From Bacteroidota bacterium (GTDB taxonomy: Bacteria > Bacteroidota > Bacteroidia > Chitinophagales > Chitinophagaceae), in assembly GCA_024640225.1 (NCBI GenBank), contig JAHEFK010000004.1:1-64000 (forward strand): a DNA stretch of 64,000 nt, read 5' to 3'. Position 1 is the first letter of the stretch. The number at the start of each line of letters is the position of its first letter. The notes beneath the pieces are model-generated. The model was not told where the DNA came from, ran no database searches, and worked only from the letters and a program-made list of their open reading frames with translations. Positions 8,704-32,683 of the stretch are shown in pieces. Both the position numbers and the translations under genes were made by a program.

Positions 8704-9432
8704 ATGACGTATTTATACAACCTATTATTATTTTTTATCACACTCATTGGCGGCTTACTTCCGCTAAGAAATAAGGAATTTAATCCAGAAAGAATCAATA
8801 CTATTTTAGCGTTCTCCGGATCTTTTTTGCTTGCCGTAACGCTCTTGCATTTGATACCTGAAACCTTTACCGACATTGGCTCTAAAGCAGGACTCTATGT
8901 ACTCATCGGCTTTTTCATTCAATTGGTGATACAACGTTATACCCATGGTGTAGAACATGGCCATATTCATGTGCATCATCATGGAGAAAAAATGGCGCTT
9001 TCTTCCGTCATTATTGGTTTGAGTTTGCATGCTGCAATGGAAGGCATTCCTTTGGGCTTTAATTATCACTCCAACAGCACCGAACCGGCTTTGTATCTAG
9101 CTATTGCTACGCACAAATTCCCTGAAGCTATACTTGTAGCTTCTTTACTAATAGCTACAGGCAATAGAACTAAGATTATTCCTAACCTTATTTTCTTTTC
9201 AGCCATTACGCCATTAACCGCTATACTAGCACACAATTTGGGTATTTATTTCTTATTTGTTTCTAACATTATTTCTGTGATCATCCCCGTAGTTGCAGGT
9301 GCCTTTTTGCATATTGCTACTACCATATTTTTTGAAAGTGGCACCAAGCATCATATGCTCACCAACAAAAAAATTGCAGCCATCCTTTTGGGCGTTGGCC
9401 TTGGTTTACTTACTACCCTTATCCACGATTAA
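8704..9432 (+). CDS. ZIP family divalent metal transporter
   Basis: A 242-residue inner-membrane protein of the ZIP (zinc/iron-regulated transporter) family, importing Zn2+ or a related metal. About eight hydrophobic segments are visible. A His-rich cytoplasmic loop (HGVEHGHIHVHHHGEK) separates helices 3 and 4. The metal-site segments are HAAMEGIPLG in one helix and HKFPEA in the next, both matching family patterns. I start at the ATG at 8704 because the in-frame TTG at 8665 lies almost on the probable transcription start. The glycosyltransferase gene follows two bases after its stop, so they are likely co-transcribed. Metal specificity is not decidable. Confidence 0.9.
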   Translation: MTYLYNLLLFFITLIGGLLPLRNKEFNPERINTILAFSGSFLLAVTLLHLIPETFTDIGSKAGLYVLIGFFIQLVIQRYTHGVEHGHIHVHHHGEKMALSSVIIGLSLHAAMEGIPLGFNYHSNSTEPALYLAIATHKFPEAILVASLLIATGNRTKIIPNLIFFSAITPLTAILAHNLGIYFLFVSNIISVIIPVVAGAFLHIATTIFFESGTKHHMLTNKKIAAILLGVGLGLLTTLIHD

Positions 9433-30752: not shown

Positions 30753-31541
30753 GTGCTAGTACTTTCTTACGCTTATTGTAATGTGCCTGTTATGCCGCTC
30801 CGTGCCGAGCCGTCGCATAGGGCTGAGCAAACCAGTCAAGTACTTTTTGGCGAGAATGTAGAAATTCTTGAATTAGCCCCAAACGAATGGGCTAAAATCA
30901 AAATTGCCTTTGATGAATATATTGGGTACTGCAAAATTTCTCAATTGCAGACTATTGCCTTAAAAGAATACAATAAAGAAAGTAAATACATAGCAAGCAG
31001 CAACAATGATGTTGTCCATTTTGAGGAAGGACAAATGTGGCTACCCATGGGTGCTGAATTAAGAGGCATGAACGGCGTAAGCCTTCCGTATATGGGAAAA
31101 ATTGGGAAATATAAAGGTCGTAAAGAACTGTTTCATCAATTACAGCCTACTTGTGAAAACATACTAAAAATAGCGCAACTATATTTACATGCTCCCTACC
31201 AGTGGGGCGGCAAAACGATTGCTGGCATTGATTGCTCTGGTTTTTCTCAACTTGTCTTCAAATTGAATGGGCTACGCATACAACGCGATGCATATCAGCA
31301 AGCTCAACAAGGCACTACCGTTGATTTTTTACAAAATGCCAAAGCAGGGGATTTAGCCTTCTTTGATAATGCAGATGAAAAAATAACCCATGTGGGTATC
31401 CTCTTAAATGCCAACACCATCATGCATGCAACCGAAACAAGTGGTAAAGTGGTAATAGATCGTATAGATAATGAAGGCATTATTAGTGTAAGCCTTAAAA
31501 AACGCACCCATCAATTACGCTTTGTGAAAAGGTATTTTTAA
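30753..31541 (+). CDS. C40 family (NlpC/P60) peptidase with SH3-like N-terminus
   Basis: A 262-residue cell-wall hydrolase candidate. An N-terminal SH3-like region (residues ~5-65: VPVMPLRAEPSHRAEQTSQVLFGE, NEWAKIKIAFDEYIGYC) is followed by a second beta region and the NlpC/P60 domain. The catalytic Cys is Cys161 in GIDCSGFSQ, and the His is His213 in THVGIL. There is no signal peptide, as in close relatives of the family, so export is uncertain. The start is a GTG; I see no better ATG. It faces the repeat-protein gene at 31554. It probably cleaves peptidoglycan stem peptides, by family. Confidence 0.9.
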   Translation: MLVLSYAYCNVPVMPLRAEPSHRAEQTSQVLFGENVEILELAPNEWAKIKIAFDEYIGYCKISQLQTIALKEYNKESKYIASSNNDVVHFEEGQMWLPMGAELRGMNGVSLPYMGKIGKYKGRKELFHQLQPTCENILKIAQLYLHAPYQWGGKTIAGIDCSGFSQLVFKLNGLRIQRDAYQQAQQGTTVDFLQNAKAGDLAFFDNADEKITHVGILLNANTIMHATETSGKVVIDRIDNEGIISVSLKKRTHQLRFVKRYF

Positions 31542-31553
31542 GTTGTAGTAATA

Positions 31554-32630
31554 TTAATAACTCACACCTTTGTAAAAAACTCTATTGACATTAGCTGCAA
31601 ACTGATATACTAAAACATCATAATTCAATTTATAACTTTCTACATTATTAGCCACTTCATAAACGGTTCCTTCAGTAACCAATTTTAGATTACCCATTTG
31701 ATTAACATAGGCCAAAGAATGATAATGCGCTTGCAATGTTTGTGGATATTGATTTTCTAATGAAATGAAATTGCCTTTATAAAAAACCTTAAAGTAATTG
31801 GCATTATCCTTAAACGCTACCATATGATCAGCAACTGTATAACTTGGACTGAAGAAGCCCACATTTAAAATCTTTCCATCATAGAAAATTTTAAAATATC
31901 CATCACTTGTTACAAATGCCACTAAATCATCGCCCACGCTATACGATGTAGCAGGATAACTATCTAATTGATACGTAGTGCCTTTATAAAATACTTTAAA
32001 TTGTTTATTGATATCGGTATAGGCCACAATGTCTCTCCCCACGGCAAAGTCTTGCACTAGATAATCTTCTTGCTCAATAATCTGTCCATGATAAAACAAT
32101 CGAAACTGATTGGCATAGTTTAAATATGCTACCATATTGTCTGATACTTTAACCGCTTCAATGGCTGTACCAGCTAAAAAATTCTCGATGGGGTAAACCG
32201 TTCCGTTATAATAAGCCTTGTATTCATTACGAACACCATCTAAGAAAAGCAAAACACTATCGCCTAAAAAATATTCAGTACAAAGGCCTGTAAGATTTTT
32301 TATTTTACCATTATCAAATACATTGAGCGATTTAGAATTTAAGTAACTAACTAAATAATCACTAGCCCTAAATTCATTACCAAATACAAAGGGAATAGTT
32401 TGAAATGAATTGTTGTAGTATATTTTAAAATTGCGCGAATTATCTAAATACGGCATGGCAACACGACCCACTTTATAATCTATCGGTATTAGGTTATCTA
32501 CTTTTTTCAAGAGGCCATTATCCCAAATCATCATTTGATTCTGGAAATTTTGAAAAATAGCAATAGGTTGCGCTTGCATGGAAACGAAAGAGACAAGAAG
32601 CAAACAACTAAAGAATAACTTTTTTAGCAT
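31554..32630 (-). CDS. Secreted tandem-repeat protein, probably a beta-propeller
   Basis: 358 residues with a signal peptide ending SMQAQ. The mature protein consists of about eight to nine imperfect units of 35-43 residues. Each has the pattern 'Y.VGDDLVAY...NGYFKIFYDGKI..L', for example YSVGDDLVAFVTSDGYFKIF and YTVADHMVAFKDNANYFKVF. The first and last units are incomplete, which is how propellers close the ring with strands from both ends (inference). There is no catalytic motif, sorting domain or transmembrane segment. Neighbours are not functionally linked. No name known to me; function unknown. Confidence 0.75.
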   Translation of the reverse strand: MLKKLFFSCLLLVSFVSMQAQPIAIFQNFQNQMMIWDNGLLKKVDNLIPIDYKVGRVAMPYLDNSRNFKIYYNNSFQTIPFVFGNEFRASDYLVSYLNSKSLNVFDNGKIKNLTGLCTEYFLGDSVLLFLDGVRNEYKAYYNGTVYPIENFLAGTAIEAVKVSDNMVAYLNYANQFRLFYHGQIIEQEDYLVQDFAVGRDIVAYTDINKQFKVFYKGTTYQLDSYPATSYSVGDDLVAFVTSDGYFKIFYDGKILNVGFFSPSYTVADHMVAFKDNANYFKVFYKGNFISLENQYPQTLQAHYHSLAYVNQMGNLKLVTEGTVYEVANNVESYKLNYDVLVYQFAANVNRVFYKGVSY

Positions 32631-32649: not shown

Positions 32650-32683
32650 AAATAAAGCCAGTAGTAGGCTACTGGCTTTATTT
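32650..32683 (-). terminator. Strong terminator downstream of infC
   Basis: A perfect 15-bp stem, AAATAAAGCCAGTAG / CTACTGGCTTTATTT, with a TAGG loop. On the minus strand a T run follows the hairpin. It lies just past the infC stop, so transcription should end there. Confidence 0.9.

Follow-up and report, generated by a model that had tools for sequence, protein, structure and literature searches.

The gene on the minus strand at positions 31554-32630 of the window (the whole stretch of 64,000 nucleotides that was analysed) encodes a protein that is best explained, with a probability of about 0.55, as a soluble beta-propeller with ten blades that is exported and belongs to Pfam family PF21734 (10_blade); it would reside in the periplasm as an O-glycosylated, non-enzymatic scaffold ring; the function is what we infer. 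Ten repeat units fill the whole mature chain, and no domain besides these propeller repeats was found.

The 10_blade gene and its surroundings

The reading frame starts with an ATG at 32630, comprises 358 codons and ends with a stop codon at 31554-31556. Translation of the plus strand between 31554 and 32630 gives many stops; the coding strand, left unstated in the initial annotation, is minus. The features assigned are the following.

31554..32630, minus: 10_blade (PF21734) gene, predicted exported protein of 358 amino acids (open reading frame, Pfam match)
32571..32630, minus: predicted signal peptide, residues 1-20 (MLKKLFFSCLLLVSFVSMQA), cleaved before Gln21 (read by eye; Gln conserved in relatives)
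32484..32570, minus: unit 1, residues 21-49, lacking the inner strand A and made up of B, C and D (DSSP of model, unit cut)
32385..32483, minus: unit 2, residues 50-82 (this and the following units by DSSP, unit cut and blade profile)
32280..32384, minus: unit 3, residues 83-117
32160..32279, minus: unit 4, residues 118-157, the longest (40 amino acids)
32253..32261, minus: exact match to the Bacteroidota O-glycosylation motif at Asp124-Ser125-Val126 (blade 4, A-B turn), the site that is most conserved in the family (alignment, entropy ranking)
32055..32159, minus: unit 5, residues 158-192
31953..32054, minus: unit 6, residues 193-226
31848..31952, minus: unit 7, residues 227-261, bearing the motif quoted in the initial annotation
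31746..31847, minus: unit 8, residues 262-295
31644..31745, minus: unit 9, residues 296-329
31557..31643, minus: unit 10, residues 330-358, with strands A to C and D very short
32650..32683, minus: terminator-like hairpin with T run, between infC and the 10_blade gene (terminator scan, sequence)

The two genes upstream on the same strand are, judging from their sequences, presumably infC and thrS. On the 3' side lies a convergent SH3-NlpC/P60 gene (window 30753-31541, PF00877), and a gene further downstream we take to be rny. The stem of the hairpin at 32650..32683 ends about 20 bases before the 10_blade ATG; two terminator-like sites were observed in the region against 1.0 expected in shuffles. 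A tRNA between infC and 10_blade was considered and rejected: the window and 20 of 21 loci were without any tRNA, and the lone tRNA (locus L026) sits elsewhere.

Many genomes of the window's own family have a noncoding element that either precedes 10_blade or follows infC, at one to four copies per genome (among others L029:9148-9325; L036 around 9402 and 11844). It is nearly invariant over about 50 bases, a 5' box (GTTTTCATRGTGATAGGGTTTATAGGGG) leading into a terminator hairpin and a T run, and in the stem of the G447 copy a C-G pair is replaced on both sides, to give G-C. An exact 24-mer of the element occurs in 20 of the 177 loci examined and is absent from the window. With up to three mismatches it was found in 12 of 96 own-family genomes, all 12 of them holders of 10_blade, a co-occurrence that may be explained by shared clade. 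Rfam gave no match at the gathering cut-off, the weak matches including those to the FopS paralogous sRNA (21.7 bits, cut-off 56) and the L20 leader (20.5 bits, cut-off 58.7); the element is possibly a paralogous sRNA.

Family assignment and predicted fold

The initial annotation recognised no annotated family. This does not hold, as Pfam PF21734, "10-bladed beta propeller domain", is named for exactly such a fold and matches residues 18-358 (profile positions 2-345 of 345) with E 5.2e-118 and 394.8 bits against a cut-off of 27; the fold was thus already catalogued. A search of NCBIfam with the protein gave no family at E up to 10, and kinship with WD40 or PQQ propellers was rejected, as Pfam matched neither of them at E up to 10. 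Among PDB sequences a single chance match (E 1.1) was obtained with the single sequence, and the profile yielded nothing at E up to 1. A literature search by the family name PF21734 or 10_blade found no paper; the literature on ten-bladed propellers, among the matches listed, dealt with sortilin, design and other work and in no case with PF21734, and no experiment or solved structure for the family was found.

The structure prediction that the initial annotation had proposed as a check was run and gave a blade-repeat propeller, the only Pfam family matched being a propeller as well. The AlphaFold2 model of the window protein (pLDDT 87.9, pTM 0.83) and that of a relative with 29% identity from a Salinivirgaceae-titled assembly (pLDDT 85.7, pTM 0.80) are both all-beta after the signal peptide, the former being a confident repeat model. 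Both models were made from the same five proteins, which for the relative were arranged in a different sequence and included two that had been extended by a few residues, and so do not represent independent alignments.

Foldseek returned 882 PDB matches at E<=0.001; among the best 50 of these the designed Tako8/Ika8 propellers lead, UVR8 and RCC1 are included, and the query-normalised TM-scores are low (0.22-0.36). In VIA-align, ranks 1 to 5 were occupied by eIF3 complexes, eIF3b or eIF2A (Z 11.4-12.1), and ten-bladed sortilin aligned with Z 8.8-9.5 over 314-325 residues at an rmsd of 5.8-6.3, these values being above, though not far above, the Z of 7-8 typical of no clear match. The rmsd was mostly 6-8 A. 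The model of the relative produced a similar list, with sortilin at Z 9.2-9.4 over 320-325 residues and SorLA at Z 8.8 over 331. The low TM-scores and high rmsd fit a differing blade count but are weak proof of ring geometry. Since the VIA-align Z values are modest, the fold call rests on the Pfam match, the repeat and the models jointly; on these predictions and fold comparisons the window protein is almost certainly a beta-propeller.

Ten repeat units and the ends of the predicted ring

The repeat architecture that had been proposed is real. When the protein was compared with itself, the mean BLOSUM62 score reached z 6.0-7.6 (500 shuffles) at offsets 178, 69, 143, 35 and 104, whereas over all offsets below 250 none of the 500 shuffles surpassed z 4.74; offsets 247 (z 4.6) and 212 (z 4.45) were high, yet below this maximum. 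The best off-diagonal self-alignment scored 272, while 40 shuffles averaged 41 and reached 76 at most. A single-blade profile gave 217.8 bits on the mature protein and at best 6.2 bits on shuffles, 96 of 200 of which matched at E up to 100; this profile was built from the family with the window protein included and is not independent, whereas the offset and self-alignment test is.

The number of units is ten, of 33-40 residues with a period of about 35, rather than the eight to nine of 35-43 residues initially suggested. The strand-C anchors (DSSP of the AlphaFold2 model) are at residues 33, 68, 101, 136, 176, 211, 245, 280, 314 and 348, with spacings of 35, 33, 35, 40, 35, 34, 35, 34 and 34, and the blade profile also counts ten. 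Among 61 relatives it found ten units in 52, nine in 8 and eight in 1. The pattern that had been offered as shared by the units is present, but it is that of unit 7 (SVGDDLVAF..YFKIFYDGK).

Incomplete end units had also been expected. This is true of the N-terminal end, where the mature chain starts at strand B, and of the C-terminal end only in that the last strand is short. The classic velcro requires a spare C-terminal strand that completes blade 1. Because unit 10 is nearly complete (A-B-C and a short D), no spare strand seems to be left for blade 1, and of the ring-closed propeller claimed at the outset the propeller stands (Pfam, two AlphaFold2 models, fold comparison) and the velcro closure is doubtful. 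In the model, blade 1 is without strand A and no strand is seen as a substitute, which would also suit an open or differently closed repeat. Such an arrangement is nevertheless very improbable, taking into account that the model confidence exceeds 85 across most of the mature chain, that the Pfam name itself is ten-bladed and that the models align over nearly their full length to the propellers of sortilin and eIF3b.

More than ten blades had been suspected from split matches in L171 and L174, but L174 has 10 blade-profile matches. The relative in L171 (3666-5078) is 471 amino acids long, with a large mid-ring insert and 11 partial blade matches. Long frames that could be taken for 10_blade fusions (e.g. 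L170, L176) were dismissed, as their additional residues seem to stem from an upstream frame that is unrelated or from a start set too far upstream.

Export and location

The residue at +1 after cleavage is Gln in 60 of 61 relatives; in a wider set of sequences this holds for 103 of 109. The Q-rule of Bacteroidetes, as described in PMC5837995, states that SPI substrates start with pyroglutamate, and the mature protein would carry an N-terminal pyroglutamate. The sole lipobox-like string, FFSC (residues 6-9), falls within the signal peptide, and there is no lipobox at the cleavage site. That the protein has no sorting domain was borne out by NCBIfam, where no match, TIGR04183 and TIGR04131 included, was obtained at E up to 10. 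The genome itself uses type IX secretion (SprA present, 48 TIGR04183 matches), and the protein, having no such tail, is thus not a T9SS cargo of the usual kind.

A signal peptide with Gln at +1 and no sorting domain make a soluble periplasmic protein most likely, and the corresponding proposal of the initial annotation is plausible in view of the SPI-type site and the cleavage site free of a lipobox. We regard periplasmic location, as indicated by the signal peptide, as probable; the protein would stay in the periplasm or in the lumen of vesicles, secretion past the outer membrane being a less probable alternative.

Distribution and gene neighbourhood

A 10_blade gene was detected in 3 of 395 genomes across the phylum, the window's own genome included, which has one copy. 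Within the own family it is present in 20 of 98 genomes; its absence from the other 78 of the 98 sampled (a few of them incomplete) implies that its role is dispensable in much of the family. In the order, own family included, 99 of 248 genomes have it, and some of these give two or three matches. A family of another order (the second family below) has it in 99 of 100 genomes, with one match each, the lone miss being a 79%-complete genome. None of 14 control genomes had it. The nearest named relative (L023, 96%) is in an assembly titled Chitinophaga pinensis, a title that may be wrong, and the 10_blade protein of L026, a Salinivirgaceae-titled MAG contig, is 29% identical to the window protein, compared with 19-25% for the second family.

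Neighbours were clustered in 20 own-family loci (window included), 21 of the second family, 20 of the order and 1 titled Salinivirgaceae. Several loci are cut by contig ends, so that the counts are lower bounds, and cluster names were tested on one representative each, the names infC and rny being presumptive. In the own family, infC was found in at least 13, NlpC/P60 in at least 11 and rny in at least 10 of 20 loci. The second family has a subtilase upstream in at least 9 and DUF4494-PdxH directly downstream in at least 8 of 21, and the order has Mrp downstream in at least 7, OmpA/TPR in at least 5 and PorP/SprF in at least 4 of 20. No neighbour is common to all three groups examined and the context names no partner; 10_blade therefore probably acts via a product encoded elsewhere.

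A conserved site in blade 4

Of 145 loci with a match, L171 and L174 with their split matches were left out and 110 distinct sequences remained; after removal of a sequence with withheld letters and of a copy of the window gene, and with the window protein added, the alignment held 109 distinct full-length relatives. Mean identity is 29% (1500 sampled pairs); seven row pairs are more than 90% identical, and the rows are related by descent. Asp124 is invariant (109/109), and D-S/T-[AILVMT] is found at 124-126 in 104 of the 109 rows: 24/24 in the own family, 40/43 in the second family, 39/41 in the order and 1/1 in Salinivirgaceae, spanning thirteen families of the sample (ten tallied within the order). 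The five exceptions, which also keep Asp124, read DSF, DDI (three) and DNV. DSV at 124-126 is the sole D(S/T)(A/I/L/V/M/T) motif of the window protein. The next-best column has the motif in 15 of 109 rows and no other exceeds this; Ser or Thr is found at the equivalent turn of blades 3 and 5-10 in 0-8 of 109. This near-invariant D-S-[LIVM] site is new here, no description of it having been found under the family name.

Ranked by entropy among all positions, Asp124 is first, Asn165 second and Ser125 fourth. Asn165 (unit 5) is kept in 106 and Gly233 in 105 rows, compared with 104 for Ser125, and neither has a glycosylation motif. The lowest-entropy positions are D, N, G or S of turns, Q21 and D131, and form no recognised catalytic pattern. 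A catalytic pair of Asn165 and Asp131 was considered and found unsupported: Asp131 belongs to a B-C loop but Asn165 to an A-B turn, which by the topology are expected on opposite faces.

D(S/T)(A/I/L/V/M/T) is the motif of the O-glycosylation system of Bacteroidota (PMC8729774, PMC12871550). As stated in a 2025 review, it is present in about half of the non-cytoplasmic proteins, with almost complete occupancy of common sites (PMC12871550), and for P. gingivalis most inner-membrane and periplasmic proteins are described as modified (PMC8729774). The window protein combines the two features by which a Bacteroidota O-glycoprotein is recognised, the motif and export, the latter judged from the signal peptide. 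Ser125 would bear one O-glycan, and on the sequence we consider its presence probable. It is rather doubtful that this is a single obligatory glycan needed for folding, placing or partner binding of the ring. The conservation in blade 4 may instead reflect structure or a binding patch, because Asp124 is kept without the motif and Asn165 and Gly233 are equally conserved.

Possible functions

The same conservation could mark a ligand-binding or sensor propeller (glycan, peptide or metal) with its site on the rim of blades 4 and 5. Asp124, Asn165 and Ser125 rank first, second and fourth by entropy and occupy A-B turns of adjacent blades; however, Asp or Asn is found at the same turn in most blades, so that the conservation is partly turn geometry, and a sensor leaves the match to the O-glycosylation motif unexplained. 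We consider this reading unlikely. It is quite improbable that the propeller works with a peptidoglycan-linked partner, the adjoining NlpC/P60 endopeptidase. Of 20 own-family loci, 11 have the convergent enzyme next to 10_blade (at distance two in one, cut by a contig end in another), and it is the single PF00877 match of the own genome. Locus L028, of another family, has an NlpC/P60 gene that starts at 9165 with a signal-peptide-like stretch and overlaps the stop codon of 10_blade. Yet the cluster gene is found in only 1 of 21 second-family loci and in none of 20 in the other families of the order, and the closest NlpC relatives also lie away from 10_blade (e.g. G427, G395). The own-family enzyme has SH3_16 from residue 16 and no visible signal peptide, and may thus be cytoplasmic. 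SH3_16 was not matched in the enzyme of L028, so that the two are probably not orthologues. An overlapping pair as in L028 (8084-9869) was not found in the 20 other loci of that family examined.

An accessory of type IX secretion or of cell-surface machinery is likewise improbable. In favour of it, the OmpA/TPR-cluster gene stands before 10_blade in 5 of 20 order loci, in 4 of them in the order PorP/SprF cluster, OmpA/TPR cluster, 10_blade (L154, L159, L165, L166). In L159, the only locus in which the names were tested, PorP/SprF is TIGR03519 above the cut-off and OmpA/TPR resembles CHU_0125_OmpA and PorE (256 and 248 bits, below the cut-offs of 620 and 600). A giant protein is encoded upstream of the pair in L154, L159 and L166, that of L159 with TIGR04131 (type B tail). 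On the other hand, L155 and L157 of the same order keep the Mrp neighbour without PorP/SprF and OmpA/TPR, and SprA is present in 96 of 96 own-family genomes (94 above the cut-off), with or without 10_blade, so that co-occurrence with T9SS is uninformative.

In the preferred reading, that of an O-glycosylated periplasmic propeller, the ring would act non-enzymatically, binding or scaffolding a partner in the envelope in the manner of PQQ-type propellers during the assembly of outer-membrane proteins; by this analogy the scaffold role is a tentative suggestion. Natural ten-bladed propellers with solved structures are few, and among the structure matches listed they were sortilin and SorLA. With blades of only 35 residues, a bacterial ten-bladed ring would offer a compact model of what determines the number of blades; a fragment with five blades, from which a ten-bladed ring had been expected by pairing, is described as not having formed one (PMC6805158). 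The near-invariant motif offers a direct test of the role of O-glycosylation in Bacteroidota, the function of which is called unclear by the 2025 review (PMC12871550). If the glycan were indeed obligatory, selection on one site of the general Bacteroidota O-glycosylation system would be stronger than on nearly all other residues of the protein carrying it.

Comparison with known propellers

With its whole-length match to PF21734, its ten units and a Q+1 signal peptide that its relatives share, the window protein is an ordinary member of the family. In Vps10p/sortilin the propeller is followed by a cysteine-rich 10CC domain; the window protein has none, its chain ending at unit 10 with one Cys in the mature protein. 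It also differs from sortilin in having no Asp-box ([ST]xDxGxx[WFY]) and in its length of 358 amino acids versus 590-662 residues of the sortilin target chains. Ten blades, as in the window protein, are described for sortilin/Vps10p of eukaryotes (PMC9356209). The two have the same shape, with no sequence match and no sign of kinship.

BamB and other PQQ-type periplasmic propellers have eight blades. They are exported propellers like the window protein, which differs from them in its ten blades and in having no PQQ-type motif, no BamB match (NCBIfam, E<=10) and no lipobox at the cleavage site. PQQ propellers are described as binding proteins in outer-membrane assembly (PMC9218822). BamI of the Bacteroidota BAM complex, as presented in PMC12578637, is an envelope propeller too, but a surface-exposed lipoprotein with six blades and an N-terminal domain.
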